Shown here: positions 18,292 to 64,000 of the stretch, piece by piece
How positions within the stretch are numbered: position 1 is the first letter of the stretch
Layout: every line of letters starts with the position of its first letter
Source: Lentisphaerae bacterium GWF2_49_21
Lineage (GTDB): Bacteria; Verrucomicrobiota; Lentisphaeria; Victivallales; GWF2-50-93
Assembly (NCBI GenBank): GCA_001804805.1
Contig: MHBH01000046.1
Coordinates: forward strand, 1 to 64,000
Reading direction: 5' to 3'
Length of the DNA stretch: 64,000 nucleotides
Position numbers and translations under genes: made by a program
Notes under the pieces: model-generated
Told to the model about the DNA's origin: nothing
Databases searched by the model: none
What the model saw: only the letters and a program-made list of their open reading frames with translations

Positions 18292-18304
18292 TTTTTGACT
18301 CCAA

Positions 18305-18411: not shown

Positions 18412-18414
18412 GAA

Positions 18415-19878: not shown

Positions 19879-19936
19879 ATTGCAGTTTTATAGTTAAACC
19901 TTTTGTTAACGCTTGCAAACACTGTGAATTTTAACA

Positions 19937-19964: not shown

Positions 19965-19991
19965 ATTCTACATGCCCTGCCTTTTCCTTTG

Positions 19992-20168: not shown

Positions 20169-20280
20169 TCACATCGAAAGTCTTACCCAAAGCTTCTGGG
20201 GGGGCACCAGCCCTTCAGACTTCTTTAACACGCAGCCCCACCAGTGCTCGACACTTCTCAGCAAATTGGAGCGGTGAATT

Positions 20281-43805: not shown

Positions 43806-44617
43806 TAGAGAAGGACTGCGAAATAAGCATAAGCCGCCAGTGCAGCCTGCTGAACCTGAACCGTTCGACCTATTATGCGGCCCGGGAAGGTGACAGGAAG
43901 AAGGATCTCGGGCTGATGAAACTGATAGACCAGATTTATATCAGGTGGCCGTTCTACGGGAGCCGCAGGATCGCCAATGAGCTGGCAAAACATGGCATCA
44001 TAGCAAACCGGAAGCGGATACAGCGCCTGATGCGGCTGATGGGGATACAAGGGCTTGCGCCCGGAATAATGACCAGCCGTCCGCATCCGGAGCATGTGAA
44101 GTACCCTTATCTTCTGGGAGGTCTGAAGATAGACACTCCGAACCAGGTCTGGTGTACTGACATAACCTATATTCCAATGAAGCACGGGTTCATGTATCTG
44201 GTCGCAGTCATGGACTGGCACAGCAGATGCGTGCTCTCCTGGGAGCTGTCAAACAGCCTTGACAACGGGTTCTGCATAAGCGCGCTGAAGAGGGCCATTG
44301 CGGAATACGGGGCTCCCGAGATATTCAATTCCGATCAGGGATGCCAGTTCACGAGCCTTGATTTCATCGAAGTGCTGAAGAACAAGGGAATAAGGGTCAG
44401 CATGGATGGCAAGGGAAGAGCCTCGGACAACATATTCATCGAAAGGCTCTGGAGAAGCCTGAAATACGAGGACATATACCTGAAGGAATACCAGGATGTC
44501 CCGGCGCTCCGTGAAGGGCTAGGGCAGTACTTCGAGTTCTACAACGGCATAAGAGGCCATGCGTCCCTCGGCTATAGCACGCCAATGGAAGTCTACCTCG
44601 GAAAGGCTGCGGCATGA
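43754..44617 (+). CDS. IS3-family transposase OrfB (DDE integrase core)
   Basis: 287 residues if read from the GTG at 43754, or entered by -1 frameshift from orfA. The N-terminal HTH_21-type part (LMKLIDQIYIRWPFYGSRRI) is followed by the rve core with all three catalytic residues: Asp in VWCTDITYIPM, Asp in FNSDQGCQFTS and Glu in FIERLWRSLKYEDIY. The C-terminus GQYFEFYNGIRGHASLGYSTPMEV is the usual IS3 end. No stop or frame error seen, so the element is probably active or recently so. Confidence 0.92.
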   Translation: MDEKKLSEHPVEEKRDMIEKDCEISISRQCSLLNLNRSTYYAAREGDRKKDLGLMKLIDQIYIRWPFYGSRRIANELAKHGIIANRKRIQRLMRLMGIQGLAPGIMTSRPHPEHVKYPYLLGGLKIDTPNQVWCTDITYIPMKHGFMYLVAVMDWHSRCVLSWELSNSLDNGFCISALKRAIAEYGAPEIFNSDQGCQFTSLDFIEVLKNKGIRVSMDGKGRASDNIFIERLWRSLKYEDIYLKEYQDVPALREGLGQYFEFYNGIRGHASLGYSTPMEVYLGKAAA

Positions 44618-44897: not shown

Positions 44898-45660
44898 AAA
44901 GCTTTTCCGGCCCCTGAAATGTTTTGAGCGGCAGCAATGCGTTCTCGATGAAGTTGGTGCTCAGCAATGAGACGTTCAGAGGCCAGCAGGCGCACCGAGA
45001 AGATGCAGGGCTATTATATCTTCTCCGGCCTCCTCGAGGCTCTGGAGGGCATTTGCGTTCTTTACAGCCAGGAACGCATGGAGCTCCCTGTATATCTCCC
45101 TTGCCGCCTCCGGTCCCTGCGCGTTGCGAAGCCTCTTGAAATAACTGGAAAGTTCTGAATAATGCCGCTTTGAGAGATATCCCTTATGTTCCTCTCCTTG
45201 TGAATCAGGCATCTCTGTGTGACTGCGTCAGGATAAAGGGCGAGTACGGCGCCCTTCAGGGAAGCCGAACCGTCAAGGACGCTGTAAAGCCTTTCGACCT
45301 TCTTTAACCCCTCTTTAACCCAAAGGCGGCTCACGGAACTCTTCGATGTAAACGGGCTTTCTGGACAAATCATCTTCTGGTCCCTTCCGCTCACATTGGC
45401 CATCAGCGCCCTCATCAATGCATCACGAACTGCTCCGGCATCCCTGGGCAGCATAGCTCGCAAGATGCATCTCCTTGCTTTCCTCTGAAGTCTTCCGTCT
45501 GACGCGCGGACGATCCACGCGCTCATTGCGACCCTCCAATATACAGACTCCTTCCGTGTTCCCAGCCCGGTAGGGAGCATCTTTCCCTAATGGATTATAT
45601 CTCGGCCCGCAAAGAGCCTCTACTTCCTTCAGCATCACATCAATCGTTATGGAAAGCACG
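44898..45660 (-). pseudogene. IS256/Mutator-type transposase relic
   Basis: Pieces of one transposase in three frames on the minus strand. The N-terminal piece (about 45659-45423) has YRAGNTEGVCILEGRNERVD and RPRVRRKT. The middle piece (to about 45180) has SKSSVSRLWVKE, then directly VERLYSVLDGSASLKGAVLA and PDAVTQRCLIHKERN. The last piece has YLSKRHYSELSSYFKRLRNA and, after another shift, NVSLLSTNFIENALLPLKTF. The order matches IS256/Mutator transposases, but the stretch between SKSSVSR and VLDG, which should carry the first catalytic Asp, is missing. At least two frameshifts and one internal deletion make it non-functional. It abuts the rescued 3' end of the SGNH gene. Confidence 0.8.
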
Positions 45661-49308: not shown

Positions 49309-49864
49309 TTACCTTGAAATTTTCCGGATTTCCTGAACGGCTTTAATCATCGCCAGGTAGTTTTAGAAAGGCACATAGTCAGGAATGGAATTACCGGATC
49401 CCAAAGCATAACCTTTAGCCATGGCTCGGAATCTTTTTCCCAGATCCTTTACGGTTTCATAAACTTCGTTTTCAGTTCGGTATAAAGTTCCAGGTCATCA
49501 CCTTGCATAAAAGGCAGATATTCCAGACCGACCAGATCTTCACTGATTTCAAAAACCCCGTTACCGACTCCACCAATAGCTTCATTCCCTCTGGCAGAGT
49601 TTTTACTAAGGCATCGAATCTTGATTCTGCTCTATTCCAATAGAGTTTAGGGCTATCATCCCATGGGTAAGCTTCAAAATCGGTACGATTCTGGATTGGT
49701 CCCGGTTTTCCTCCCATCAATGCCCCTCCATCCGGCAGGATTTCTGTTATGCAAACCTCAAAAGACACCGTATCATAAGTCATGTCTTTGAAAAAGCGGC
49801 AATAATGTTTGAAGAATTCAGCCTGATCATTGGCAATATGGCGATAATCTGGTTGAATGTTCAT
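49309..49864 (-). pseudogene. Frameshifted UroD-family (uroporphyrinogen decarboxylase-like) gene remnant
   Basis: The start MNIQPDYRHIANDQAEFFKH is followed by about 90 residues in frame. Near 49565 the meaningful reading jumps to a second frame (GVGNGVFEISEDLVGLEYLP, then MQGDDLELY) and near 49450 to a third (VYETVKDLGKRFRAMAKGYA, then GSGNSIPDYVPF). There a stop replaces the expected Glu before NYLAMIKAVQEIRK. That ending is the characteristic C-terminus of UroD-family methyltransferase-like proteins. Two frameshifts, one nonsense codon and a missing N-terminal half make it non-functional. An intact UroD-like paralogue lies at 52429-53538. Confidence 0.75.
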
Positions 49865-49872
49865 TTTTTCTC

Positions 49873-50670
49873 CTACATCGGGGCCCCGTGCCCCTGATAT
49901 TGTTTAAGATTTTTCATGAGGTAATCGACTTTTTTGCTGACGGCTTCAACAATAGCATCAACGGCCTGCTGTCCGAATTCTGCATTGGAATTTTCCACGC
50001 CATTATTAGAAGAGCCAACAGGTCTCTCTTCATTGTTTTTTGGCAGGAGAGAGAGGTCCTGCATGCCGGAATCAAGATACATGAGCAGGGAAGTTTCCCA
50101 TTTCCCGGCATGATCCCCGCAGGGGGTAAATTTTTCTTTAACCAGTTCGTACCCACTCATTACCCATACTGGCATTTTAGGTTTGGCCTGTTCCTGGTGA
50201 AAAACGGCTGCTGCAGCTCTGGCGTGGTCAAGCAGTGGATAATGCCCGGCACCGACTACCAGGACTTTGAATCCCAGACTTTTAATTTCATGGAAGATAT
50301 GAACCAACAAACTTAAATAGTTCCGGTTTTGCTCAGATACTGTCTCCACCATATAACCGGACTTAAAATTAGCTCGATTAAGGTTCATTTTTTGGGCAAT
50401 GGATTCTTTGTCTGCAGCATTGGCTTCCATCAAAGCCTGTTCCCGGTTTTCACCATAATAAAGCGGAGGAAAGACCAAACCGCCGATTTTTCTGGCACAC
50501 GCGATAAGTAAAGCATGACTTTTCAAGGTATCAAGACCGACCGGATTGTGTTCCCCGTGCCATTCGATGGTTCCGATCGGCAAAAAGGCGACTGGGCATT
50601 TCTGACGTTCGGCGACTATCTGGTCCGGTCTCAATCGTTCGTATTGCACCTGAATATCTGTATTTTTCAT
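49873..50670 (-). CDS. Creatininase-family amidohydrolase
   Basis: 265 residues. Metal-site motifs of the creatininase/creatinine amidohydrolase family are present: PIGTIEWHGEHNPVGLDTL near 31-49 (Glu, His, Asp), VVGAGHYPLLDHARAAA near 145 and GDHAGKWETSLLMYLD near 190 (Asp/His and Glu). The fold binds two metals and opens cyclic amides; substrates differ widely in the family (creatinine, peptide-precursor rings), so creatinine itself is not assured. Last intact gene of the long minus-strand cluster, 8 bases before the UroD relic and about 250 bases after the dehydrogenase gene. Confidence 0.82.
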   Translation of the reverse strand: MKNTDIQVQYERLRPDQIVAERQKCPVAFLPIGTIEWHGEHNPVGLDTLKSHALLIACARKIGGLVFPPLYYGENREQALMEANAADKESIAQKMNLNRANFKSGYMVETVSEQNRNYLSLLVHIFHEIKSLGFKVLVVGAGHYPLLDHARAAAAVFHQEQAKPKMPVWVMSGYELVKEKFTPCGDHAGKWETSLLMYLDSGMQDLSLLPKNNEERPVGSSNNGVENSNAEFGQQAVDAIVEAVSKKVDYLMKNLKQYQGHGAPM

Positions 50671-50917
50671 AATTTGCCATCCAATAATAAACTATTTCAT
50701 TAAACAGTCTTTTCAATCGTAATTCCGCTCGTAATCTTTAATGTGTCGAATGCGCGTGCAAGCACTTCCTTTAGTATGGCGGTTTTTAAACCGCCACGCC
50801 GGACGTAGTCTGCGTGTTAGGCAACGTTTTATTCCTGACGACGCATTCTGGTGACAGAATAAATTCCATCTTACATTGCGCTTCGCGTGCTCTATTACTC
50901 ATTTACTTTTCCAACGC
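50671..50917. terminator. Intergenic gap with a GGCGGTTT/AAACCGCC hairpin at 50778-50795
   Basis: GGCGGTTT and AAACCGCC form an 8-bp stem with a 2-base loop in the 247-base gap between the dehydrogenase and creatininase genes. No clean T-run follows on the transcribed strand, so it may be a partial terminator or an RNA-processing site that lowers creatininase expression. Nothing else recognisable in the gap. Confidence 0.35.
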
Positions 50918-52402
50918 TTATTTTCCCCAGATAGAGCCGGTTGCGAGTTTTCCGGGCCAACGCTCGATAACAGATTTTTTCTGGGTATAGAATTCAACTG
51001 CATCTGGCCCCTGGGCCTTGAGATCACCGAAAATACTGTTTTTATGTCCACCGAAACTAAAGAAAGCCATGGGAGCAGGCACGCCGGTGTTGATCCCGAT
51101 CATCCCGCATTGTATCTTATTGCGGAATTCCCGGGCAGCTCCGCCGGAATTGGTAAAAATTGAAGCCCCATTACCAAATTCACTGGCATTAGCAAGTTCA
51201 ATAGCAGTTGCGAGATTCGCAACTTTCATTACTGAAAGCACAGGGCCGAAAATTTCTTCCCGGGCAATCTGCATTTCCGGTTTAACACCACTGAAAATAC
51301 TTGGGGCAAGAAAGTAACCATTTTCTTTGTCAGGTACTGTAATATTTCTACCGTCCAGAACCAATTCTGCCCCTTCATCTACTCCAACCTGGATGTAATC
51401 CTCAATTCGTTTTTTTGCTTCTTTGCTGATCACGGGTCCCATTTGTGTATCAGGTTCCAGACCGTTGCCGACTTTCAGTTTTTGAGCTGCTTCAATTATT
51501 TTAGGTAATAAATTTTCTGCGCCGCCAACCAGCACCAATACGCTGGATGCCATGCAGCGTTCTCCGGCGCAACCGAAACTGGATCCGATCACAGCATTTA
51601 AAGCAGCATCTTCATCGGCATCCGGCATGACCACGATGTAGTTTTTAGCTCCACCAAGAGCCTGGACTCGCTTATGGTTGGCAGTTGCATTTTCCCAGAC
51701 CTTTCTGGCCACCGGGGTCGATCCAACAAATGATATGGCTTTTACTTCCGGAGTTGCAATAAGGGTTTCAAAAGTTTCCCGTCCCCCCTGCAACACATTC
51801 AATACTCCTGCCGGCAGTCCACCTTCAACAAATATTTCGGCAATTTTAGTTGCGGTAACCGGGCACTTATCCGATGGCTTAAGGATAAAAGTATTACCGC
51901 AGGCAATGGCAACTGGCATCATCCACAGTGGAATCATGGCCGGGAAATTAAAGGGGCAAGCCCCCACCACTACTCCCAAAGGTTCACGATAAATAAATCC
52001 ATCAACATTTGAAGCTATATCTTCGATAAAATCCCCCTTACTCAAAGATGGCATTCCGGCAGCAAATTCAACCACTTCAATACCCCGCCGGACATCACCT
52101 TGAGCTTCAATTAAGGTTTTCCCGTTTTCTTTAACCAGAATCTCTGAAAGTTCATCACTTTTTTCTTCAAGCAGTTCTTTGATATGAAACAAAATACGGC
52201 ATCGCTGGACAACCGGAGTGCTTCGCCAATCAGGAAAAGCAGCACAGGCGGCTGTAACCGCTTCGACAACATCATCTGGTGAAGAAGCCACCAAGTCCGC
52301 CACAACAGTTTTGCCATCAGATGGGTCAATAATTTTTTGTGATTCGGTCCCGTTAGGACTACGCCAGGAATCTCCGATAAGATTTTTTAAACTAACAGTC
52401 AT
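50918..52402 (-). CDS. mmsA: CoA-acylating methylmalonate-semialdehyde dehydrogenase
   Basis: 494 residues from the ATG at 52402, chosen for the AAGGA just upstream and because aldehyde dehydrogenases of this group start at this point (MTVSLKNLIGDSW). A longer frame from 52510 runs into the preceding gene. Motifs: PFNFPAMIPLWM near 149, ISFVGSTPVARKVWE near 227, and the catalytic Cys in FGCAGERCMAS near 285. The GERCMA form is typical of MmsA/IolA, which oxidise methylmalonate or malonate semialdehyde to propionyl- or acetyl-CoA. It is 26 bases after the UroD-like gene. With the class III aminotransferase in the same cluster it would close a beta-amino acid degradation route. Confidence 0.88.
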   Translation of the reverse strand: MTVSLKNLIGDSWRSPNGTESQKIIDPSDGKTVVADLVASSPDDVVEAVTAACAAFPDWRSTPVVQRCRILFHIKELLEEKSDELSEILVKENGKTLIEAQGDVRRGIEVVEFAAGMPSLSKGDFIEDIASNVDGFIYREPLGVVVGACPFNFPAMIPLWMMPVAIACGNTFILKPSDKCPVTATKIAEIFVEGGLPAGVLNVLQGGRETFETLIATPEVKAISFVGSTPVARKVWENATANHKRVQALGGAKNYIVVMPDADEDAALNAVIGSSFGCAGERCMASSVLVLVGGAENLLPKIIEAAQKLKVGNGLEPDTQMGPVISKEAKKRIEDYIQVGVDEGAELVLDGRNITVPDKENGYFLAPSIFSGVKPEMQIAREEIFGPVLSVMKVANLATAIELANASEFGNGASIFTNSGGAAREFRNKIQCGMIGINTGVPAPMAFFSFGGHKNSIFGDLKAQGPDAVEFYTQKKSVIERWPGKLATGSIWGK

Positions 52403-52428
52403 GTTTTTTCCTTTATTTTTGTTATATT

Positions 52429-53538
52429 TCAGTTTAATTGATATTTTTCCGGATGGTCCGCGGCATGGTTTTCCAGGCCGTCCATTATTGCTAGGCAACT
52501 TTGCTGCCATTTTTCAGGGGGCATGTCTTCGGTAATGCCCATAAGTAACCCTTCCATACTTCCGGTTTGTTCTAATAATTCACAGGTGATCTGCTTAACT
52601 TTAGCCGTATCTTCAAGATGAACTGAAGACGGGAAGTTAATCCACAGGACTTTATCCGGCCAGGCTTTTCGTGCTTCGGCCAAGGTCATGTCCGTATCAG
52701 GTGCAGGAGTAAATGCTTCGACATAATCCAGATCGGTGGAATTAATAGATTCGGCAATCAGACTGCAGTTAGCATCAAAATGACAACCGATCAGCTTGCC
52801 GTTTTTGTGCATGGCTTCAGCAGCTTCGTTATAATGGGGGACAAAATATTCCTCAAAAGTTTCTTTACAGATAATTTCGGCAACGACATTGCCACCGTAA
52901 TTGGCATGGGAAGCGGGAGATTCCGCAACGATATTATAAATACTGCGTTTCTTTTCGACTAAAATTTCATACAGTTTTAATATTTCATCCCGGTTAACCA
53001 TCCACTCCATGCAGAAATCTTGCATTTTTATATATTCTCCGGAGATCAGGTCCTGCAGTGGCTCAAGACCGAAGGTTGTTCGGAAAATTGCATCTTCGCC
53101 AAAGGCCTGTTCTGCTTTGGCAAAAGCTTCGTAATCAGGTTTAAAAACCTGGTCCTGGAGCAAAAACCGCAAAGCTTGGTAATCATCCGGAGACTTAAAT
53201 AGTTTTTCATGGTGCCACACGGTAAAACCGGCAGGTTCAATTAAATTACTTAAAGTACCATAAGGTGTTTCGAAATATTTCCGTATCAGTTGCCTGCTGT
53301 TTTCAAACGTAGTTTCATGTCTGATTTTCACATTTGGGTAATAGGATTTCACCACGTTATGACGGAAGACAATACATAATCCGCGGTTGCGAAGTTCGCG
53401 TTCAACAGCGCATTGCGGAATCATACTTTCATAAATAGTAAAAGGAACTTTGGCTCCAATATTTCCATGCAAAGCATGTTCAACCTGTTTTTTCGGAGTT
53501 GGTAAAGGTTTCATTGTTTTTTTCTTATTTTTGGACAA
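52429..53538 (-). CDS. UroD-family methyltransferase-like protein (MtaA/uroporphyrinogen decarboxylase fold)
   Basis: 369 residues. The order of blocks fits the UroD superfamily: RRxxxx-type start, EYIKMQDFCMEWMVNRDE near 165, HANYGGNVVAEII near 205, GKLIGCHFDANCSLIAESI near 245 (His-x-Asp/Cys metal-type site), then LDYVEAFTPAPDTDM and KVLWINFPSSVHLED. Genes of this group in Lentisphaerae usually encode corrinoid- or cofactor-dependent methyltransferase-like enzymes rather than true haem enzymes. An MttB-like gene nearby supports a methyl-transfer role. The substrate is unknown. It follows the GNAT gene by 37 bases. Confidence 0.75.
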   Translation of the reverse strand: MSKNKKKTMKPLPTPKKQVEHALHGNIGAKVPFTIYESMIPQCAVERELRNRGLCIVFRHNVVKSYYPNVKIRHETTFENSRQLIRKYFETPYGTLSNLIEPAGFTVWHHEKLFKSPDDYQALRFLLQDQVFKPDYEAFAKAEQAFGEDAIFRTTFGLEPLQDLISGEYIKMQDFCMEWMVNRDEILKLYEILVEKKRSIYNIVAESPASHANYGGNVVAEIICKETFEEYFVPHYNEAAEAMHKNGKLIGCHFDANCSLIAESINSTDLDYVEAFTPAPDTDMTLAEARKAWPDKVLWINFPSSVHLEDTAKVKQITCELLEQTGSMEGLLMGITEDMPPEKWQQSCLAIMDGLENHAADHPEKYQLN

Positions 53539-53575
53539 AAAGGTGTCAAAGATAAAAATAGGGAGATGGAGGATT

Positions 53576-54145
53576 TTAAAGTATTTTGATCATTTCGATT
53601 AGGTCAGCCCGGTAATCAAATTCTTCATTCCCGAAATTAGTGCCCATAAAGTGAGGTTTTCGACCGCTTTCCCGGTAACCGCAGCGATCATAAAGTTTTT
53701 TAGCGGGATTCTCGGCTGAGACCGTAAGGAGCAGGACCCTGAGTCCGATTTTAATAGCTTCTTCTTCCAGTGCATCCATCATTTTTTTGCCGATTCCCAG
53801 GCCCCGGGCAGAGGAATTGATCTGCAACCCCAAATTCCCATAACCTTTACCGAACTGACCATTGTCAATATGGAGCCAACCCTGGCCGGAAATGTTGCCG
53901 TCAACTTCAACCATCAGGTAGATAATTCTGTCCAGTTCGATTTTCTTCAAAATATCCAGGAGTTTATTGCAGGCGGCAACTTTATCCATTTCCTGAATGG
54001 GAATCCAGAGAAGTTGCTTCATGGACTCATCGTAAAGCTCGTTGTTTGATTTCAAAAAACCTTCGAGGTCTTCCCAGGCAGGACACCTGAAAATCACGGT
54101 TTTTCCTTTGAGTGTGAATTTTTGGATTGTTTCTTCTGTTTTCAT
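53576..54145 (-). CDS. GNAT-family N-acetyltransferase
   Basis: 189 residues. The GNAT acetyl-CoA-binding signature lies in LGLQINSSARGLGIGKKMMD (near 100-125), with ALEEEAIKIGLRVLLLTV and NPAKKLYDRCGYRESGRKP after it. Residues before this form the variable substrate side. The acceptor cannot be told. It sits between the glycoside hydrolase and the UroD-like gene on the same strand, with gaps of 34 and 37 bases, so it is probably part of the same transcript. Confidence 0.85.
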   Translation of the reverse strand: MKTEETIQKFTLKGKTVIFRCPAWEDLEGFLKSNNELYDESMKQLLWIPIQEMDKVAACNKLLDILKKIELDRIIYLMVEVDGNISGQGWLHIDNGQFGKGYGNLGLQINSSARGLGIGKKMMDALEEEAIKIGLRVLLLTVSAENPAKKLYDRCGYRESGRKPHFMGTNFGNEEFDYRADLIEMIKIL

Positions 54146-54179
54146 AGTTCTACTCCAAGTTATTTAATATAAGTTCAAT

Positions 54180-55640
54180 TTAAGTTAAGTTCATTTTTTG
54201 ATCAACTGCCAATTGGTATTCGCAAGTTTTATGTCTTGTTTTTAATTTGATTATTTGCTGTTCAGTTGATGTTCCGATAAAAGCTTTGGGATTTCCTGCA
54301 AAGTCAGTCACGAAACGGCATTCTCCTGCGATTGAAATATGATTTATACCATCAATAACTATGTGTGATTGATTTTTCTGATTAATAATTTCCAAATCCA
54401 ATGTTTTATATTCGGTCTTATATGATGAATTTTGTTGATTGGGGCAGCGACAATTCCATTCAATCTCTTGGTCCTGTATTGAAATTCCATAGAGTCTTTT
54501 GATAAAATCAATAAGTAAACACATTGCAGGAGAGTATCCATCGCTGCAGGATAATTTTCCTGTAAAAGGATTCATTTGCTGCATAAAGCCGTTACTATTT
54601 ATTAAAGCTTCAATCCAGATATGCATCAACTCAGTTAGTTTGGCATATTTTCCGTAATACTCCAGCCAACGCGGGGCACGCAAAGCCGTAAGTACCTGGC
54701 TTGGCCCGCCCCAGGAATTGTCTGGCAGTTCCTGAACAAAACGAGGATCATTGATAGCGACTGAAGGAAATGGGAACGGGGTCCAAAATGCTTTCGGATT
54801 AACTATCCAGAAATTATAAATCTGCTCAAATAGGGATTGATTTACTACATGTTCTGAGAGAACTCTGGTCAACAGGTCACAGGCTATCCGGTTAAATTTT
54901 CCATCAACATCCAAGTCATAAAAACATAGAGATTCGTCATCAAAGCAACATTCAAAAAGAGCTTTTTTAACAGTCTCTGCCTTGGCCGTCCAATATTCGG
55001 TTTTCTCCCTATAACCGAGGATCTTTGCCATTCCAGCTAAAGCGATCCTGCCACCATAAATTGTTGCGGAAAGGTCAGGAGAAAGATATGGGAGACCAGT
55101 GACTTCCGGGCAGAGTCGGGCATCATCGTCCCGGCATTTTCTGGGTACTCCATCCCATCGCGGGCTTTTATCATGGCCCGTATCATACTCACAAAAAGCT
55201 TCGCATAAACCGGTTTGACGGGTGTCGCGGAATTTTTCCAACCACAGTTCCCATCTGGAACAGGAAGAAAAAGCCTGTTCCAGAAAATTTTCATCTCCGG
55301 TTTTTTTGTACAGCTCAAGAGCTGTAGCAGCAATGGGGACAACCATCTGAATTTGGCTGCGGCCAACTTTTTTATTCCAGATAAAGCATGGCAGATAACC
55401 GTCATCTTCCTGAAGGGCAAAAAATGCCCGATGATTATTCAAGGCGATTTCCGGGTTGACATCAGCATAGAGTAACCCCTCCAGTGGCCCGCTTTCCAGC
55501 CAGATACCCTGATAGTTACCACCTTCTATCAGGACTGGTTTCGGAAAGGGGGAAAGCGTTCTAATATTTGCCTGCAACCCTGCCAAAGCCGCATCTGCTT
55601 TATCCTGCAGCAGAGGGTAGTCTGTGTGAAAGCTGAACAT
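54180..55640 (-). CDS. (alpha/alpha)6-barrel glycoside hydrolase-like protein (MGH1/GH63-like)
   Basis: 486 residues, no signal peptide, so cytoplasmic. Helical repeats with conserved aromatic segments: YQGIWLESGPLEGLLYADVN near 46, GYLPCFIWNKKVGRSQIQMV near 80, ELWLEKFRDTRQTGLCEAFC near 133-160, and NSWGGPSQVLTALRAPRWLE near 310 with a candidate acidic pair (EAFCEYDTGHD, WTPFPFPSVAIND). The C-terminal 90 residues are beta-rich. The layout matches MGH1-like/GH63- and amylo-1,6-glucosidase-related enzymes acting on oligosaccharides. It starts 2 bases after the MttB-like stop. The substrate is unknown. Confidence 0.7.
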   Translation of the reverse strand: MFSFHTDYPLLQDKADAALAGLQANIRTLSPFPKPVLIEGGNYQGIWLESGPLEGLLYADVNPEIALNNHRAFFALQEDDGYLPCFIWNKKVGRSQIQMVVPIAATALELYKKTGDENFLEQAFSSCSRWELWLEKFRDTRQTGLCEAFCEYDTGHDKSPRWDGVPRKCRDDDARLCPEVTGLPYLSPDLSATIYGGRIALAGMAKILGYREKTEYWTAKAETVKKALFECCFDDESLCFYDLDVDGKFNRIACDLLTRVLSEHVVNQSLFEQIYNFWIVNPKAFWTPFPFPSVAINDPRFVQELPDNSWGGPSQVLTALRAPRWLEYYGKYAKLTELMHIWIEALINSNGFMQQMNPFTGKLSCSDGYSPAMCLLIDFIKRLYGISIQDQEIEWNCRCPNQQNSSYKTEYKTLDLEIINQKNQSHIVIDGINHISIAGECRFVTDFAGNPKAFIGTSTEQQIIKLKTRHKTCEYQLAVDQKMNLT

Positions 55641-55642
55641 AG

Positions 55643-57076
55643 TTATTTAATCAAATCCTTCTTAGCTCTTTGAATTACAGCCATAACCGCTGTTTCTTTT
55701 TCAGTATCAATTTCCGGACCTTTGCAGGATGCCAGAATATTGCGCCATTTTTGATCTGCTTTATCCAGCATTTCGACTTCCAGATTGGTATCCGGTTTAG
55801 GGATATCCATTCTGCGGTCCAAAAATTCAGGTTCCCATAATGTCCGGAAATTATTCAGGGTATGTTCCATTTCCAAAAAGGACTTTTTTTCACTATTAAC
55901 GACTTCTTCAAGTACTGAAAATGCCAAGGTATTGTCATTGACTTCTATTCCTTTAAAGAAAGTTGCCAACCCATTATTAAATTCCAGGTCCAGCATCAAC
56001 TGGGTGGGAGAAAAACTTCTGCCGGAATCAAGAATCCCATGTTCCCAGGGACAATTGGCAATGCCAGAACGGGCTAGCATATTCATCATTTTTTCATAAA
56101 CCGCCTGCATTCCTGGACGCTTGGCAAGAGTGTTGTACCCGGAAGGAGAACTGGAACGGATTTTAAACACATCTCTCAACATAGTATGAGCGGCAATATT
56201 TTGAACATGTGCTTCCGGAGAACAAAAAGTGGCGCACGCGGTTTTCATGTCCAGCCCCCCGGAGTAAATGGAACAATGTCCGGGAATATCATCACGATAC
56301 ATCCTGATCACCATCAGGCCGCCTAGTGCTTCAGCCAGTCCCTGACTGACTGTCCCGGCCATTGACATAGGGGCATTAACTCCGGCAACAGGCATACAGC
56401 CGATAGATGAATACCAACCGCGTTTCAATTGTTCAACCAGAATTGCGGCTGCATGTTCTCCGAGTTTCAGGGGAGAAGTAAGATCCCTGATTTTATGAAA
56501 GTATCCCCGGTCGTGTCCTTCGATTATCTGGGTGATTTCACAGAGATATGGGATCTGTTTTACATCGTATACATCACAACAGCCAACTGGTTTTTCAGAA
56601 TGCAGTCCCATCAGAGCTGAAGCTTCAATTACTTCGATTTCTGGCTCCAAATCCCCAATGGTGAGGGGGGCGGAAATGCTGGCAATTTCCGGCATGGCAT
56701 TACCAAGATGTATCATATCAATAAAATCTTGGCGGGTAGCCGTATGCTGAGATCTTTCCGGCCAATCAACGAAAAACATTGGATAATTACCCAAAATCAT
56801 TTTCATTTCATGCTGGAATTCAATAGGCATCACTTTTCCGTTTTTGTTACGCTCCTGCCACATGGCACTGATAGCACCGAGAAGTTCTTTGGCCAATTCG
56901 CGCGGGAAAAGAATTTTTTGTTTTTCTTTATCTACTTTTGCTCCGGCTTTTGCTGCCGCTTCAAGCAGTTCATCATTTTCAACTATAAGACCGATCTTTT
57001 CCAGAATTTTATACACATTGTCTTCAATCTTTTCCATTTCTATTGCACTTAACAAGTTCTGATAGGCATAATACAT
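55643..57076 (-). CDS. MttB-like (trimethylamine methyltransferase family) protein without pyrrolysine
   Basis: 477 residues with no internal amber codon, so it belongs to the non-pyrrolysine branch of the MttB superfamily. Its characterised members demethylate quaternary amines such as glycine betaine, proline betaine, carnitine and gamma-butyrobetaine by methylating a corrinoid protein. The N-terminus EDNVYKILEKIGLIVENDEL and the core blocks SAPLTIGDLEPEIEVIEASA, GCMPVAGVNAPMSMAGTVSQ and SSPSGYNTLAKRPGMQAVYE follow the family pattern. GGAG lies 9 bases before the ATG. No corrinoid protein or RamA-type activator is encoded in the window, so the methyl acceptor must be elsewhere. Confidence 0.85.
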   Translation of the reverse strand: MYYAYQNLLSAIEMEKIEDNVYKILEKIGLIVENDELLEAAAKAGAKVDKEKQKILFPRELAKELLGAISAMWQERNKNGKVMPIEFQHEMKMILGNYPMFFVDWPERSQHTATRQDFIDMIHLGNAMPEIASISAPLTIGDLEPEIEVIEASALMGLHSEKPVGCCDVYDVKQIPYLCEITQIIEGHDRGYFHKIRDLTSPLKLGEHAAAILVEQLKRGWYSSIGCMPVAGVNAPMSMAGTVSQGLAEALGGLMVIRMYRDDIPGHCSIYSGGLDMKTACATFCSPEAHVQNIAAHTMLRDVFKIRSSSPSGYNTLAKRPGMQAVYEKMMNMLARSGIANCPWEHGILDSGRSFSPTQLMLDLEFNNGLATFFKGIEVNDNTLAFSVLEEVVNSEKKSFLEMEHTLNNFRTLWEPEFLDRRMDIPKPDTNLEVEMLDKADQKWRNILASCKGPEIDTEKETAVMAVIQRAKKDLIK

Positions 57077-57109
57077 AACTATTCTCCTGTTTTTTTATTT
57101 ACTCTTACC

Positions 57110-58435
57110 TTATTTTTTCAAAGCTGAGCTCAAACCCCAGCGGATTTCAGTTGATTTTTTCTTATTATCACCCGGAATAAGATACTTGTATGATTCAACT
57201 GTTTTTCGGAAAGCAGCAACGTGCTGTTCGATAACATCCTTGCGGAAGTGCTTAAACCACGGAATCGAAAATACCCGGGACTGAATCCCTTCCGCAACAG
57301 GCAGGTGTTGATTTATTGGTAATTCGTCTTCGGGAACATCTGGGCAGTTTCTAGATTTCCCCTCGCCATAAACGTCAATAATACTGAAAATAGGATGTTT
57401 ATGCAGTGCCGGATTGCAACCTGGAATACAGTATGTTCCTTCAGCGGCAACCGCTTCACAGAACCTTTCCACGGAAAGTCCATCCAGTTCTTCTGGAACA
57501 TAATGACCATGTGGGCAATACCAGGCGCCCATTGTTGATCCGGATTTTGCTCCCGGACAATGTGGTTTTATTCCCGGTAATCCTTCCAACTGTTTCCAAA
57601 AATACTTCATAGCCCGGTCTATTTCTTCCATTTCGGCAGGAAATTTTTTTAGTTGTTCTCTGCCCACTGCTGCGGAAATTTGATGCATCCGGTATTTATA
57701 ACCTCCCCAGGGAAGTCCTGAATACTTCTTTAATTCCGGAATAGTAATTTCATCGTGACGGATATAATGCCCGAAAAGAATGGCTCTTTCATAGATTGTT
57801 CTATCATCTGTCAATAAAATTCCTCCTTCTCCAATGGCAAAACCTTTAGCTGACATTAATGAGAAACCAGCAGCATCACCGAAAGTCCCGGCCATTTTAC
57901 CTTTGTAAATACTGCCATGGGAATGCGAAGCATCTTCAATGACTTTCAAATTATGCTTTTGTGCAATTGCCATGATAGAGTCCATATCCGCCGGATGTCC
58001 GAGATAATGCACCACCATTATGGCTTTTGTTTTAGGGGTTATTTTGCGTTCGATATCATCCGGGTCAATACACAGACTTATCGGATTGATATCGGCGAAA
58101 ATTACCCTGACACCCAGGGAAAGCGCCTGCAGGCAGGTTGCCCAATAGGTAATTGTTGGGGAGATAATTTCATCTCCAATTTTCAAACCTACACCGAACA
58201 TGGCGGTTTGAATTGAAGCAGTTCCGTTATTGTGTGCCAATGCGTATTTTACTCCGTACCAATCCGCATATTCACGTTCAAACTTTTTAGTAACGTCAGT
58301 TCCGGACATAGCACCGCGACGCAAAACATCCAGAACAGCAGCTTCCATTTCTCGATTTACAATTGGCCAAGTGAACATATCACCATCCGCTACTTTTACG
58401 GCTTTTTCTCCTCCTAATATAGCTAAATTGCTCAT
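57110..58435 (-). CDS. DegT/DnrJ/EryC1/StrS-family PLP aminotransferase
   Basis: 441 residues. Fold-type I layout: ALAHNNGTASIQTAMFGVGL near 60, DEIISPTITYWATCLQAL near 85, KVIEDASHSHGSIYKGK near 160 (Asp-Ala-x-x-x PLP motif) and the active-site lysine in FSLMSAKGFAIGEGGIL near 195. Such enzymes transaminate keto sugars, inososes or related ketones. A HYLGHPADMDSIMAIAQKHN segment and a cysteine-rich C-terminal part (YCPHGHYVPEELDG) occur in the sugar-type branch. The substrate is unknown. It lies between the acyltransferase-like gene (11 bases upstream) and the MttB-like gene (33 bases downstream). Confidence 0.87.
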   Translation of the reverse strand: MSNLAILGGEKAVKVADGDMFTWPIVNREMEAAVLDVLRRGAMSGTDVTKKFEREYADWYGVKYALAHNNGTASIQTAMFGVGLKIGDEIISPTITYWATCLQALSLGVRVIFADINPISLCIDPDDIERKITPKTKAIMVVHYLGHPADMDSIMAIAQKHNLKVIEDASHSHGSIYKGKMAGTFGDAAGFSLMSAKGFAIGEGGILLTDDRTIYERAILFGHYIRHDEITIPELKKYSGLPWGGYKYRMHQISAAVGREQLKKFPAEMEEIDRAMKYFWKQLEGLPGIKPHCPGAKSGSTMGAWYCPHGHYVPEELDGLSVERFCEAVAAEGTYCIPGCNPALHKHPIFSIIDVYGEGKSRNCPDVPEDELPINQHLPVAEGIQSRVFSIPWFKHFRKDVIEQHVAAFRKTVESYKYLIPGDNKKKSTEIRWGLSSALKK

Positions 58436-58446
58436 TTTTTACTCCT

Positions 58447-59568
58447 TTAAATTGCATAATTTTCAGGCTGATCAATATTTTTATCAAAGAAGATAAATCC
58501 TCCGCTGTTTCTAAATGATTTACCTTCCTGCAGATGCTCCAGGCATTTTTTCTGCAGACTGGTTTTTGGTTCAAAAGCAGTAAGATCAACATCCTTGGAG
58601 CCAAATACTCTTTCCAAAGTCTGTGAGCCGTCAGTTACCACTGGATATAGGTAAAACCGCTTTAAAAAGCTGACCAGATTTGAGTCAGTTTTTAAAATTT
58701 TGGTCAACTGGTAGTCAAGCATCCAGGAATTACAGACAAAGCCGGAAATCTTTTCATCCGGGCAAAATTTACTATAAATATTCCTTGCGCTATTTAAAGA
58801 ATTACTTACTTTATCCTCCGCGAAAGAATCTCCGGCTGGAATGTGAATATCCAAGAGCAGGTCACTGCTGTCCAAAACTTTGCGCCATTCCCCTTTCAGT
58901 AATACCACAGTTTTCTTTACCACAAATCCGGAAGGATTAACGGGATTGCCGATGTAACGGTCCTGTAGGTCTTTATAGCTGCTTTCCCAGTCGGGATTGA
59001 CCAAATTCACAAAACCGTCATTACGAAGTTTTATTCCCGGCTTGGTCAGGGCAGTAATTTTTGCTGTAGCAGAATTAAAAAAAGCGTGGACAAAAATATT
59101 TTTCCGCTGGAGTATAAACTGCAGACGGCCTATCCGGAACAGGGAACAGGAAAAATGGTTTTTCAGCCATTCCAGATTATCCAGTCCCCAAATTCCATTT
59201 TTATCGTGACAATCCTGAATCCAAATTCCAATGTCAGAAGCGGTTTCACGGGTAATATCTTCAGGGATACCGATTTCTCGATGTCTGGTTTTTAACTCGT
59301 TGACACAGGAAAGAACCAACAAAGCCTTAAAAAGCAGCAAATCAATTTTTTTAAGTTCAGGGAACTCAATTTCTCGTTTCAGCAAAAATTCCTGACGGAG
59401 ATCTAACAGTGATTTTTGAATTTTTTCTTCAACTTTAGACAAAAAAACCAAAATCTCAGTAATAGCAGTATCGGGTACTCCAGCGTATTCACCAAAAGAT
59501 TCCAGTTCTTTACTGGAAGGCAATTGTTCAGGTTCATATAACTTTATTATTTTTAATAGAGATTCCAT
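58447..59568 (-). CDS. Acyltransferase-like protein with GNAT-like C-terminal domain
   Basis: 373 residues. The N-terminal helical part (about 1-200) and the C-terminal part with LLLDIHIPAGDSFAEDKVSN, ISGFVCNSWMLDYQLTKIL and SNLVSFLKRFYLYPVVTDGS match the pattern of the NAT_N / GNAT_C acyltransferase-domain proteins (formerly DUF5596 type), a poorly characterised group. The acyl donor and acceptor are unknown. The start overlaps the aminotransferase stop as TAATG, so it is translationally coupled to it. Recurrent linkage to an aminotransferase would suggest that it acylates the newly formed amine. Confidence 0.65.
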   Translation of the reverse strand: MESLLKIIKLYEPEQLPSSKELESFGEYAGVPDTAITEILVFLSKVEEKIQKSLLDLRQEFLLKREIEFPELKKIDLLLFKALLVLSCVNELKTRHREIGIPEDITRETASDIGIWIQDCHDKNGIWGLDNLEWLKNHFSCSLFRIGRLQFILQRKNIFVHAFFNSATAKITALTKPGIKLRNDGFVNLVNPDWESSYKDLQDRYIGNPVNPSGFVVKKTVVLLKGEWRKVLDSSDLLLDIHIPAGDSFAEDKVSNSLNSARNIYSKFCPDEKISGFVCNSWMLDYQLTKILKTDSNLVSFLKRFYLYPVVTDGSQTLERVFGSKDVDLTAFEPKTSLQKKCLEHLQEGKSFRNSGGFIFFDKNIDQPENYAI

Positions 59569-60857
59569 TAATAATATCCTAATTTTGTCAAAGATTTTTT
59601 TATGGTAGTAAATGCTTTTTCAGCTTCTTCTTGAGTAATGCAAAGCGGCGGCTGCAGCCTGAGAACATTGGCCAAGGTTCCGCCAACCCCGATCAAAACA
59701 CCATTTTCCAAGCATTCTTTCCTGACTGCCTTGGCTAGTTCGGCTGCCGGTTTTTTTCCCGAATCTTTAATTAATTCAATCCCAATCATCAAGCCTTTTC
59801 CGCGAACATCGCCAATTTCCGTTCGCTCTTTAGCGAGTTTGCTGAATTCCGACATCAGCCAGCGGCCTATTTTTTCAGCATTTTCCAACAGTTTTTCCTC
59901 CTGCAGAACTTCGATATTGGCAACTGCCGCAGCACAACTGACCGGATTGCCACCAAAAGTTGACAGGTGGTCACCCGGTGTAAATGCCTCGGCAATATCT
60001 GGTGTGACGATAAAAGAACTCAAAGGATAGCCGTTGGCAATCCCTTTGGCCATGCACATGATTTCAGGTTCAACGCCATAATGTTCAATGGCAAACATTT
60101 TTCCGGTTCTACCAAATCCGCTTTGGACTTCATCGGCAATAAATAAAATCCCTTCAGATTCAAGAATTTCTTTTATTATTTTAAAATATTCTGGCGGGGG
60201 AACAATAATTCCCCCCTCTCCCATTATCGGTTCGGCAATGAAGGCCGCAACGTCACCCGAGGTCTGATAATTGATCACATCAGACATGAAATGCGCACAA
60301 GTGGTCCCGCAACCAGGATAAGTCTGCCGGAAGGGACAACGGTAACAATTTGGCGCGGGGGCGAAGGCAATCCCGGATAAATAAGGACCGCTGCCTTTTT
60401 TCCGGCCACGGTTACCGGTAATGGAAAGCGTGCCGACTGTTCTGCCATGAAAACTTTGGGTCAGACAGATAATTTCTTTTTTATGACAATGCTGTTTAGC
60501 GATTCGCAATGCTCCTTCGACTGCTTCAGCTCCGCTGTTACCAAGAAAACTTTTCTGGAGTTTCCCGGGGGTGATTTCTGCAAGTTTCGCAGCAATTTCT
60601 CCCGCACGTGGATTGTAGTATACATAGGTACAGCAGTGGATAAATTTATCAATTTGCTTTTTGGCAGAAGCCTGGATTTTGGGATGGTTGTGTCCCGCGT
60701 TTACTACGGAAATTCCACTGAAGCAGTCTAGGTAGTCTTTACCTTGACTGTCCGTAATAGTGCATTTAAATGCATTTTCAACTTCCACGGGCTGAAAACC
60801 TGCCACCATTCCGGTAATCATGTAATTATCATAGTTGTTTTTTGCCTTTAAGCTCAT
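59568..60857 (-). CDS. Class III PLP aminotransferase (omega-amino acid type)
   Basis: 429 residues. Motifs: GNSGAEAVEGALRIAKQHC near 104, SFHGRTVGTLSITGN near 132, LFIADEVQSGFGRTGKMFAI near 238 and the PLP lysine in CMAKGIANGYPLSSFIV near 268, then HLSTFGGNPVSCAAA near 298. The family transaminates omega-amino acids (ornithine, GABA, beta-alanine, taurine). A zinc-finger-like insert CYRCPFRQTYPGCGTTCAHF near 180 is typical of the beta-alanine/GABA-pyruvate subgroup. With MmsA in the same cluster, a beta-amino acid substrate is plausible. It is 9 bases downstream of the isomerase gene. Confidence 0.9.
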   Translation of the reverse strand: MSLKAKNNYDNYMITGMVAGFQPVEVENAFKCTITDSQGKDYLDCFSGISVVNAGHNHPKIQASAKKQIDKFIHCCTYVYYNPRAGEIAAKLAEITPGKLQKSFLGNSGAEAVEGALRIAKQHCHKKEIICLTQSFHGRTVGTLSITGNRGRKKGSGPYLSGIAFAPAPNCYRCPFRQTYPGCGTTCAHFMSDVINYQTSGDVAAFIAEPIMGEGGIIVPPPEYFKIIKEILESEGILFIADEVQSGFGRTGKMFAIEHYGVEPEIMCMAKGIANGYPLSSFIVTPDIAEAFTPGDHLSTFGGNPVSCAAAVANIEVLQEEKLLENAEKIGRWLMSEFSKLAKERTEIGDVRGKGLMIGIELIKDSGKKPAAELAKAVRKECLENGVLIGVGGTLANVLRLQPPLCITQEEAEKAFTTIKKSLTKLGYY

Positions 60858-60866
60858 AATATCTCC

Positions 60867-61964
60867 TTATTTGTTTATATTTGGTGAACTAATAACTATT
60901 TCTATTTCTTCTCCGCTATCTGGAATAATAGTTATTTCTTCAGTTGCTGCAGCAAAAAGAAAACGTTCTCCTCTGTTGACAACAAATGATGAATCATTAT
61001 GCATAATAATTCCTGTTCCGGAAGTCACAACTGCTATTTCAACGTGACGGTTCTTTTTGCGGCAATACTGCTTGGAAACTTTTATTCTTTTTACTTCAAA
61101 ACATGGTGTATGTTTAGAACCGATCAACAGTTCTTCACAGAACCCTTCTTTACTGTGAAGTATTTGCGGTTTAAGACAAAATTGCTCCCGGACTTTCTCG
61201 GGACTCAATCCAGTGAAATTAAATATTTTAAGGGCAAAATCCGGGTCCTTTTTCATGAATCTGGCAGGAGGGGGAACAATGATACCTTCACGCTCAAATT
61301 CACATCTGACAACTAGATCGCTGGGTTCCATAATCTCAATAACCAGTAGTCCTTCTCCAAGTGCATGTGGCAGCCCCCCAGGAACGATCCAGACTTCACC
61401 TTCTTTTACCGGAATCTTTTCAAAGCATTTATCCATGGCTTCGATGTCCTGTTCCAGAACGATGCGCTTCCATTCTTCCGGGGTTGGAGGATGCTGAAAA
61501 CCCAGCCGGATATAGCCTTGGACGTCATCTCTGACACCAATGATGAAATAAGCTTCAAATTTTCCATAAGGTGAGCCAAAATGTTTTTTGGCGAAGTTCG
61601 CAGTAGGATGAGCCTGAACATGCAAACGCATGGAAGAATCCAGGAATTTGAGAAGGAACCCCAGTTCCGGACCGAGTGTCTGCAGATGTTTTTCCCCCAG
61701 GTAAAAATGCCCCTCCTCCTGAAATAGTTTTTTCAGGATAATTTTATTATCGATACTGGTAATCTCCGCCAAACCTTCATTGGAAATCTCAGGCAGGCCG
61801 GGGTTGATTGCAAGAGTAGTTGAAGCAATCCAGTCTTCAGGTTTGAATGAATCCTCACCTGGAGTGCCTGTTTCGAGCATATCCAGCAAAGCTCCTCCCC
61901 GGTAGTTCCTCCTAACCCGGTTGGACTGCAGTTTTAAAATTTCTTTAGCAAAAGATGTATTCAT
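60867..61964 (-). CDS. manA: Class I mannose-6-phosphate isomerase-like protein
   Basis: 365 residues from the ATG at 61964, which overlaps the GH2 stop as ATGA; a reading from 61997 adds 11 charged residues inside the GH2 gene. Motifs: NYRGGALLDMLETG at the start, HVQAHPTANFAKKHF near 130 (metal site with Gln-His), VWIVPGGLPHALGEGLLVIE near 205, and ILHSKEGFCEELL after it. The C-terminal cupin carries SGTGIIMHNDSSFVVNRGER. It interconverts mannose-6-phosphate and fructose-6-phosphate and agrees with the GH2 beta-mannosidase-like neighbour, which would release mannose. Confidence 0.82.
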   Translation of the reverse strand: MNTSFAKEILKLQSNRVRRNYRGGALLDMLETGTPGEDSFKPEDWIASTTLAINPGLPEISNEGLAEITSIDNKIILKKLFQEEGHFYLGEKHLQTLGPELGFLLKFLDSSMRLHVQAHPTANFAKKHFGSPYGKFEAYFIIGVRDDVQGYIRLGFQHPPTPEEWKRIVLEQDIEAMDKCFEKIPVKEGEVWIVPGGLPHALGEGLLVIEIMEPSDLVVRCEFEREGIIVPPPARFMKKDPDFALKIFNFTGLSPEKVREQFCLKPQILHSKEGFCEELLIGSKHTPCFEVKRIKVSKQYCRKKNRHVEIAVVTSGTGIIMHNDSSFVVNRGERFLFAAATEEITIIPDSGEEIEIVISSPNINK

Positions 61965-64000
61965 TTTATCTTTATTCTTTTGGAGGGAATGTTCCATCCG
62001 CTGATTTCAAGATGCCCTTTTCTCGGAAGACTTCCTCCATGCAACAGTTTCAGCCTTTTTGATTCTCCCGGAAGGAGACAGAAGGCATTATCATCCAAAG
62101 GAAATATTTCCAGGGCAGTATCGGCAACGGCTTCAACCAACACCAGAAAGGCGATCTGTCCGGAGGAATTGGTTACCGTAATGCTCTGCGAAGTGGCAGT
62201 AACTCTTAACTCAGCCTGGGGCATAGTCGTCATATCCTTAAAATAGATACCTTTTAAAAGATATGCGGCGGTATTCTTTCTTTCCCGTTTTGTAGTAGCA
62301 GTACGGAGCACCATGCTCTGGGAAACTGTTTTCTGGCAGTTACTTTTTATTTTCACGGCAATTTCATTCCAACCTTCCGCATTAATCAAATTTTTCGGTA
62401 TATCATAATATCTGGGCTGCAGGTGGGGAAGGATGACCGGATCACTGAAAAAAGCATATTCACTCTGCCTGGATATCCGGATCTGTGCTTTATTTTTGCC
62501 GTGCGGAACACAGGCCATGGCTGCAATGTCTACGGATGCAGGTTGAAATTCATGACTGCCGATTTTCCTGCCGTTAATAAATACTTCATCGGAAGCTTCA
62601 AAACCGAGACAGAAAAACTCCAGAACTTTATTTGCGAAATTCGCAGAAACTTTGAATTTTCTAGTATAAGCGGGAAAATCATCTGTCTTTTTGGCTTTTC
62701 GATAATGCTCGGCAGTTTGTTCAAAGTCTTTATCCGCACTTTTCATAACGATGGTCTCAAAACCGTCATCGCTTAAGGTAAGGTCATTGCCAGGCAATTG
62801 GATTTCCGAACCATCCTTGCGTTGCCAAGTGCCATCAAGAGGGATTTTTTCTCTTTCCTGAGTTCGGGAAACAGCTAACCAGTACCAGGTATCAAAAATG
62901 CGTTTCCCCTGGCGGAACAAACTGGCAAAGATTAGCAGTGACTTTCCGGAAAGTTCTTCAGATATTTTGAATCTTAAATCTTTTATTTTTAATGAAGAAT
63001 TTTGATTTGCGGCCAAATTAGTAATATTTTCTCGATGCAGCAGAATACTTTGACTGTCGAAAATCATAATTTCCGCAACCAGCCCTTTAACAGGACAGCC
63101 ATCATTTACCAGGAAGATTACCGGGGAAAATGTTTCTCCGGGGTTCCAAAGGTATTTTTCAAAATCAAGCAAAAGGGCCAAAGGACGGGAAGAATTTATG
63201 TAACGGTAAAATGTTGGTTTTGGATTTCCCCAGCAGTCTATGATCTCCCGGTGGAGGCAAGGCCAAGGAGCATTAAGCTGCCAACTCAAATTGCCGCTGC
63301 ACTCGAACATTTGCATGCGGCAGTATTCCATATTATAAGTGGAAATCCGTATGTGATTCAGGTGATTCGCCAGCAATGCTTTCTCAAAATCATCTTCCAC
63401 TCCGTATTCTCTTGCAGCCGCCATAAATTCTGCCGGAATACCGAAGAAATGCCGCCAAAGTTTCTGATTGAAAGGTTTTTTTGCTTTCTCAGAGAAGAAA
63501 CGTTCTAGGGAAGACGGCATTGCCGGACTGCGTCCAACAGCCACCTCACTTCGAAATAGAACCATTCTTTTATCTCCGGGGAGAATATCCAAATACTTAT
63601 TCCTAGTCCCTGTGGGAGTCATCAGTAAACCGCCATGTTTATCACCTTTATACGGAGAAGCATGTCTGAATTCCCGGTCCGGGTCATTTTTTGCTACAGT
63701 CGCAGCAATTTTATCAACCAAAACCTTATTATCCGGATTGTCAGGCTCAAATTCATTGCCCCCGGAATAAAACAATAAACTGGGGTGATTGAGCAACCTT
63801 TCGACTGTGTCTTTAACACAACGTATAAACAGGTCATGATCAATGGCCGGATAATTCTCACAGGCCAGCCAGAATTCCTGCCAGCACATTATTCCCAGTC
63901 GGTCACATAATTCATAAAACTCATTCGTTTCCGCCAGACTGCCACCCCAGACACGAAGAAAATTCAAACCTCCGGCATAAGCAGGAAAAAGTTGTTTTTC
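61961..64000 (-). CDS. Glycoside hydrolase family 2 protein, beta-mannosidase-like, partial (N-terminus beyond window end)
   Basis: The frame is open to base 64000 (679 residues visible, GGLNFLRVWGGSLAETNEFY near the right edge). GH2 TIM-barrel motifs: ELCDRLGIMCWQEFWLACEN, then NHPSLLFYSGGNEFEPDNPD, with the acid/base Glu in GNEFE, as in beta-mannosidases. A beta-sandwich domain follows, and a sugar-binding-like part near the C-terminus (FCLGFEASDEVFINGRKIGS, QPASVDIAAM). The second catalytic Glu is likely in the segment MVLFRSEVAVGRSP. The start and any signal peptide lie beyond the window. Stop overlaps the isomerase ATG. Beta-mannoside specificity is inferred. Confidence 0.8.
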   Translation of the reverse strand, partial: EKQLFPAYAGGLNFLRVWGGSLAETNEFYELCDRLGIMCWQEFWLACENYPAIDHDLFIRCVKDTVERLLNHPSLLFYSGGNEFEPDNPDNKVLVDKIAATVAKNDPDREFRHASPYKGDKHGGLLMTPTGTRNKYLDILPGDKRMVLFRSEVAVGRSPAMPSSLERFFSEKAKKPFNQKLWRHFFGIPAEFMAAAREYGVEDDFEKALLANHLNHIRISTYNMEYCRMQMFECSGNLSWQLNAPWPCLHREIIDCWGNPKPTFYRYINSSRPLALLLDFEKYLWNPGETFSPVIFLVNDGCPVKGLVAEIMIFDSQSILLHRENITNLAANQNSSLKIKDLRFKISEELSGKSLLIFASLFRQGKRIFDTWYWLAVSRTQEREKIPLDGTWQRKDGSEIQLPGNDLTLSDDGFETIVMKSADKDFEQTAEHYRKAKKTDDFPAYTRKFKVSANFANKVLEFFCLGFEASDEVFINGRKIGSHEFQPASVDIAAMACVPHGKNKAQIRISRQSEYAFFSDPVILPHLQPRYYDIPKNLINAEGWNEIAVKIKSNCQKTVSQSMVLRTATTKRERKNTAAYLLKGIYFKDMTTMPQAELRVTATSQSITVTNSSGQIAFLVLVEAVADTALEIFPLDDNAFCLLPGESKRLKLLHGGSLPRKGHLEISGWNIPSKRIKIK

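Follow-up and report, generated by a model that had tools for sequence, protein, structure and literature searches.

Gene content and layout of the run

We analysed a stretch of 64,000 nucleotides (hereafter the window) from contig MHBH01000046.1 (C46) of Lentisphaerae bacterium GWF2_49_21, an uncultured anaerobe of the class Lentisphaeria with a genome of 5.9 Mb in 91 contigs. At 49873-61997 the window carries an operon-like run on the minus strand, in which genes for a protein resembling the methyltransferase MttB and for a protein of the UroD superfamily are found together with aminotransferase, dehydrogenase and glycosidase genes. An earlier note, made from the sequence alone, had described one cluster of MttB-like, UroD-like, MmsA and creatininase-type genes with two aminotransferase genes, and all of them were recovered where it had placed them and on the same strand. 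Gene families were assigned by Pfam and NCBIfam profile matches against the family cut-offs. From the upstream side, the genes are the following:

61961-63967, minus: C-terminal part of a glycoside hydrolase family 2 (GH2) glycosidase, exo-beta-mannosidase/glucosaminidase-like (PF22666 124.5 bits, PF18368, PF17753)
60867-61997, minus: mannose-6-phosphate isomerase-like protein, ManA-like (TIGR00218 68 bits, below the 116 cut-off)
59568-60857, minus: class III (omega-amino acid type) aminotransferase (PF00202 392 bits; closest NCBIfam PRK08117/PRK05769, below cut-offs)
58447-59568, minus: acyltransferase with NAT_N and GNAT_C domains (Pfam)
57110-58435, minus: DegT/DnrJ/EryC1/StrS-type aminotransferase (PF01041 262 bits)
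55643-57076, minus: MttB-like corrinoid methyltransferase without pyrrolysine (PF06253 174 bits)
54180-55640, minus: MGH1-like glycoside hydrolase (PF22422 97.5 bits)
53576-54145, minus: GNAT acetyltransferase (PF00583)
52429-53538, minus: UroD-superfamily protein, probable corrinoid-linked methyltransferase (PF01208 21.8 bits, just below the 23.9 cut-off)
50918-52510, minus: MmsA, CoA-acylating (methyl)malonate-semialdehyde dehydrogenase (TIGR01722 596.8 bits, above the 448.5 cut-off)
49873-50670, minus: creatininase-superfamily amidohydrolase (PF02633 84 bits)
49472-49864, minus: N-terminal remnant of a second UroD-like gene, a pseudogene whose reading frame is broken downstream (by eye and alignment; without its own Pfam match)

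The gene list of the earlier note was right but incomplete, as it lacked the GNAT, NAT_N/GNAT_C and MGH1-like genes, the broken UroD and the upstream extension. The GH2 gene runs past the window end, to roughly 65.28 kb on the contig, and the run continues on the same strand for ~15 kb more, to about 80 kb. This upstream part encodes a second class III aminotransferase together with Amidohydro_3, GH106-like, GHL10/GH42M-like and GH43/130-like proteins and a 780-aa fusion of a neutral-ceramidase-like with an Amidohydro_2 domain (L040 6760-9102), and beyond it lies a rhamnulokinase-like gene in divergent orientation. The window genes are the 3′ half of a same-strand glycosidase/amidohydrolase run of ~30 kb.

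Two assignments of the earlier note stand in part. The adjoining mannose-releasing enzymes are present as the GH2 and ManA-like genes, but their identities are similarity-level assignments. The product of 49873-50670 scored 49 bits against creatininase proper (TIGR04448), under the 235 cut-off, and by these profiles it is a member of the creatininase superfamily and not creatininase proper. As the note had said, none of the genes of the run encodes a corrinoid protein, and our literature search likewise found no published description of this gene set.

Intergenic gaps from the GH2 gene through mmsA range from -82 to +37 nt, and it is therefore likely that these genes are on one shared transcript, while the creatininase-superfamily gene is set off from mmsA by 247 nt. 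The likely true start of mmsA is an ATG near 52402 with an upstream ribosome-binding-like AAAGGA, and with this start the overlap of 82 nt vanishes. For the UroD-like gene, the likely true start is an ATG near 53514.

The MttB-like and UroD-like proteins and the corrinoid machinery

In the MttB-like protein, PF06253 covers residues 6-474 of 477 and its score compares with a cut-off of 25, while the score against TIGR02369, the pyrrolysine-containing trimethylamine methyltransferase MttB, was 189 bits, under the 525 cut-off. The position of Pyl334 in MttB is taken by Asn315 and the gene has neither an internal stop nor an in-frame amber codon, which agrees with the earlier description of the protein as non-pyrrolysine. 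In the alignment, Met228 corresponds to the pocket Met249 of MttB and is invariant in 16 sequences; Gly352 corresponds to the corrinoid-contacting Gly372 and is Gly in 14 and Ala in two of the 16. The functional roles of residues of the Met249/Gly372 type have been described (PMC9842639). A Trp sits at the Tyr364 position. The AlphaFold model (mean predicted local distance difference test, pLDDT, 84) had its best Foldseek matches in MtgB (9yce/2qne) and MttB (7xcl) with template modelling (TM) scores of 0.77-0.80, the best solved relatives being the glycine betaine methyltransferase MtgB and MttB. As modelled, the protein is structurally intact but divergent.

An orthologue of the MttB-like protein was absent from the genus and family genomes searched. 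The closest relatives share 33-34 % identity with it, and within the class the values are 34 % and then 30-31 %. Used as sole query against 84,980 species it gave no match, and a narrower MttB alignment recovered nine loci. In a tree of 71 MttBs the protein forms a long branch in a supported clade of 22 rows (100/97), away from MtgB. The long branch, the low family scores and the Trp at the Tyr364 position could also mean that the protein has lost methyl transfer and performs another activity on the same barrel. We consider this very unlikely: the fold match to MtgB/MttB extends over the full length, and the invariant Met and the corrinoid-side Gly are retained.

Family, length, fold (TM 0.80 to MtgB), pocket Met and lack of pyrrolysine are shared with the non-pyrrolysine demethylases of the MttB superfamily, which act on glycine betaine (MtgB), proline betaine (MtpB), carnitine (MtcB), gamma-butyrobetaine (MtyB) and phosphocholine (MthB). 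The protein differs from them in its identity to MtgB of about 22 % and its placement in a separate 22-member clade. Most members of this large superfamily are without a known substrate and six had one by 2025; the known non-pyrrolysine substrates are acidic quaternary amines (PMC12155760), and these are thus the best prior for the substrate here. A second MttB of the same genome is encoded on contig C70, not near corrinoid protein, RACo or CODH/ACS (carbon monoxide dehydrogenase/acetyl-CoA synthase) genes.

Regarding the UroD-like protein, AlphaFold and Foldseek supported the UroD fold, with a TM score of about 0.6 to UROD, while by sequence neither the protein nor a profile of its orthologues significantly matched a solved structure in the PDB. 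With its PF01208 score below the cut-off and no PDB sequence match, the protein falls short of HemE, the uroporphyrinogen decarboxylase. Its orthologues (60-64 % identity) occur in many genomes of the class, in most cases by themselves or next to a gene read from its sequence as AraC-like. In one genome (G020, L140 5886-12463) the orthologue is grouped with further UroDs (three UroD-family genes), RACo and a corrinoid protein. This group is a candidate corrinoid methyltransferase system and ties the orthologous group to corrinoid methyl transfer.

A triad H244-x-D246...E328 (numbering of the first sequence in the alignment) is invariant in 19 UroD sequences. Through a related UroD (L082 5267-6310) it aligns with HIC and with the C of PGCG in the coenzyme M (CoM) methyltransferase 4ay7, so that His-Asp-Glu stands in place of the His-Cys-Cys metal site of thiol (CoM-like) methyltransferases. 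Carboxylate ligands replacing cysteines mark the O-methyltransferases of the UroD superfamily (PMC10418091), and the putative triad is thus pointing to an O-type substrate. We also considered a thiol-type acceptor methyltransferase, which the same replacement makes unlikely. The protein resembles the corrinoid methyltransferases of the superfamily (MtaA/MtbA of the thiol type; the O-demethylases OdmB/VdmB/MtvB) in the UroD fold, the His at the metal position and an orthologue whose gene adjoins those for RACo and a corrinoid protein. Type 1 mlp gene clusters (PMC10418091) share with the run UroD-superfamily proteins, the corrinoid logic and the occurrence in anaerobes, but they combine three Mlps having a His-Cys-Cys site with a corrinoid protein and an activase, none of which is found in the run.

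The MttB-like gene also departs from three-component corrinoid methyltransferase systems, having neither a linked corrinoid protein nor a linked second methyltransferase (MTII). The genome search for an unlinked corrinoid protein and RamA that the earlier note had proposed was positive for both. Two B12-binding_2 proteins are encoded: a MetH-like protein on C61 and, on C52, a stand-alone corrinoid protein of 211 aa adjoining a PocR/AraC-type regulator. Two RACo/RamA-type activators are found on C77 and C43, one of them grouped with CODH, acetyl-CoA synthase (ACS) and a protein resembling the gamma subunit of the corrinoid iron-sulfur protein (CFeSP-gamma-like); CODH and ACS scored above their NCBIfam cut-offs, and CODH/ACS is a possible methyl sink. 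On C77, ACS alpha/beta and CdhD/AcsD delta are fused in one protein of 1180 aa (L231 3609-7151). The fusion gene stands between the CODH and CFeSP-gamma-like genes and is followed by RACo and then by glycine-cleavage-like genes.

Conservation of the neighbours and proposed function

We took the flanks, up to 6 kb in either direction, of 77 MttB anchors (665 kb), which were the MttB matches of 22 genomes plus three additional loci, and used as control 38 loci of the same class anchored on UroD and DegT orthologues (333 kb of flanks). In rough counts, UroD was near 20 of 77 MttBs against one of 38 control loci (Fisher p = 0.001) and DegT near 12 of 77 against one of 38 (Fisher p = 0.03). An AraA/FucI-like sugar isomerase was near 6/77 and a class III aminotransferase near 4/77, both against 0/38. 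A corrinoid protein was near five of the 77, all in two stretches of genome G026, so the lack of a linked one is usual among these MttBs and not a defect. The two stretches hold complete-looking MttB systems, one with three MttBs, a pterin-binding methyltransferase, a corrinoid protein and RACo (L038 803-8526) and the other with a corrinoid protein, MttB, UroD and MttB (L195 1760-6438).

All four class III aminotransferase cases belong to the 22-row clade of the MttB-like protein (4/21 against 0/49, p = 0.007) and to one subclade of it. An MttB with an orthologous class III aminotransferase was found at L080 18-3242, L082 5267-13390 and L083 7645-10514, from Lentisphaerae and Kiritimatiellae, and L082 also holds two UroDs, an amidohydrolase and E1-type dehydrogenase subunits. 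Judged by sequence identity, a conserved MttB-aminotransferase pair thus exists in these two groups. These aminotransferases are 67-74 % identical to each other but 32-33 % to that of the window, and we rejected them as its orthologues; the pairing in the window is a second and independent one.

The earlier note had offered one reading of the cluster as a single route, from an N-methylated beta-amino compound through demethylation and transamination to a semialdehyde and its oxidation to acetyl- or propionyl-CoA. In such a route the MttB-like protein, the class III aminotransferase and MmsA would act in this order, with the creatininase and UroD assisting. Its favourable points are the tight gene spacing, the confident assignment of MmsA and the MttB subclade tied to an orthologous class III aminotransferase, with UroDs nearby in L082. 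The co-occurrence in relatives proposed as a check went against it. MmsA-like and creatininase-like genes were in none of the 77 MttB neighbourhoods, the few linked aminotransferases are not orthologous to the one here, and UroD and DegT orthologues are located elsewhere. Moreover, the non-pyrrolysine MttB enzymes studied act on quaternary amines, and with the one secondary amine in question MtyB showed <1 % activity (PMC8604678). The MttB-like protein alone would therefore leave a tertiary amine and yield no primary amine for transamination. The run resembles beta-alanine/omega-amino acid catabolism in having both the class III aminotransferase and the MmsA families, but the two genes are non-adjacent, their linkage is not conserved and the aminotransferase is without a named equivalog. 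We regard a single linear route as improbable.

DegT orthologues occur in the class at 62-66 % identity, and what most often adjoins them is not MttB but an amidohydrolase (10 of 20 loci); a DegT specific to MttB was rejected on this ground. Homologues of the NAT_N/GNAT_C acyltransferase are found in 129 of 198 genomes of the class, and its pairing with the class III aminotransferase was rejected as well, since inspection of its 19 best homologues showed different genes next to them. The UroD and DegT orthologues (60-66 %) in other contexts argue for separate histories of the genes of the run. We tentatively favour, at a little less than an even chance, that the run was assembled from separable modules and that its two corrinoid-linked methyltransferases use a corrinoid protein in trans.

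Under this modular reading, the first module is a glycan module, apparent from its families (GH2, MGH1-like, GH43/130, GH106-like and GHL10-like hydrolases and the ManA-like protein). The second consists of DegT and the amidohydrolase/ceramidase-like proteins, and recurs in the class without MttB. By their families, the class III aminotransferase and MmsA would form a third module, leading from an omega-amino acid through the semialdehyde to acetyl- or propionyl-CoA. In the fourth, the MttB-like protein may remove one methyl group from an N-methylated small molecule, probably quaternary and acidic, and the UroD-like protein with its His-Asp-Glu site may act on a substrate of the O-methyl type. 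The methyl acceptor of both would be the one stand-alone corrinoid protein, encoded on the other contig and kept active by a RACo-type activase, and the methyl group could go to methionine synthesis or to CODH/ACS. The MttB step and the aminotransferase/MmsA steps need not be serial on one compound.

Several points weigh against the modular reading. The enrichment counts are rough owing to shared ancestry, paralogues (some loci have two MttBs) and the anchored control. The corrinoid protein on C52 is alone in its contig region, and its pairing with the MttB-like protein is hypothetical. The route from methyl-corrinoid to tetrahydrofolate lacks an evident pterin-binding MTII of the PF00809 type: Pterin_bind (PF00809) recovered only DHPS-like (dihydropteroate synthase-like) and MetH-like proteins in the genome and no further MTII, PF02007-type proteins not having been searched. 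The fold search places true UroDs above the CoM methyltransferase 4ay7, the putative metal triad is read from an alignment, and zinc is not needed by some UroD-type enzymes, such as CdmB and the Moorella O-demethylase (PMC13222342). For every step, the substrate is a proposal made from sequence.

The scattered orthologues of other run genes would also fit a glycan run that has accumulated unrelated genes, its methyltransferases being functionally unlinked to their neighbours. The absence of an orthologue of the MttB-like protein from the genus and family agrees with such a mosaic, as do the decayed second UroD and the transposase-like genes downstream at 43754-44617 and 45062-45580. However, the near-zero gaps, the single strand throughout and the excess of UroD and DegT near MttBs over the controls speak for a link, and we hold this explanation to be rather unlikely, while still giving it appreciable weight.

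Another alternative concerns methylated sugars. The glycosidases might set free methylated (amino)sugars or cyclitols, which the MttB-like and UroD-like proteins would then demethylate at N or O, with DegT and the class III aminotransferase handling the amino group. The glycosidase context, the rhamnulokinase-like gene upstream, the DegT and AraA/FucI-like neighbours of MttBs in the class and the carboxylate-type site of the UroD-like protein are in line with it. On the other side, the proximity of sugar isomerases is weak, DegT orthologues are mostly without methyltransferases nearby and we know of no methylated-sugar substrate for any enzyme of the MttB superfamily. The chance of this alternative seems low to us.

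A broader proposal is that the divergent MttB clade, UroD-type proteins and pyridoxal phosphate-dependent enzymes form an unrecognised corrinoid demethylation route for glycan-released methylated amino compounds or (amino)sugars in Lentisphaeria and Kiritimatiellae, served by one shared corrinoid protein in trans; this is speculative and in our view doubtful. The recurrent neighbours and not the exact gene order of the window are the lead worth following, as they give a divergent MttB clade of uncultured glycan-degrading anaerobes repeated and testable partners (UroD, DegT and an orthologous class III aminotransferase). If a role on methylated sugars or methylated amines were true, polysaccharide breakdown would include a B12-dependent demethylation.

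Rest of the window

The genes or remnants downstream of the run at 43754-44617 and 45062-45580 are of integrase and mutator transposase type, as named by reading the sequence. At 37785-41873 the plus strand encodes a protein of 1362 aa, which has a signal-like N-terminal start and gave no match in Pfam. The minus strand at 11031-15161 encodes a 1376-aa protein without a Pfam match, which has an N-terminal LmuA/DUF4297 match and adjoins defence genes. These form an island at 15283-30637, also on the minus strand, with type I restriction genes (restriction endonuclease, specificity and methyltransferase). The island includes a PDC-S68 protein (24594-28154, 1433 bits) and a UG5-small reverse transcriptase (21216-23186, 1087 bits), the latter accompanied by a nitrilase encoded as its own gene (20281-21219). 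The GC content drops from 0.49 at 1-34 kb to 0.43 at 34-62 kb.

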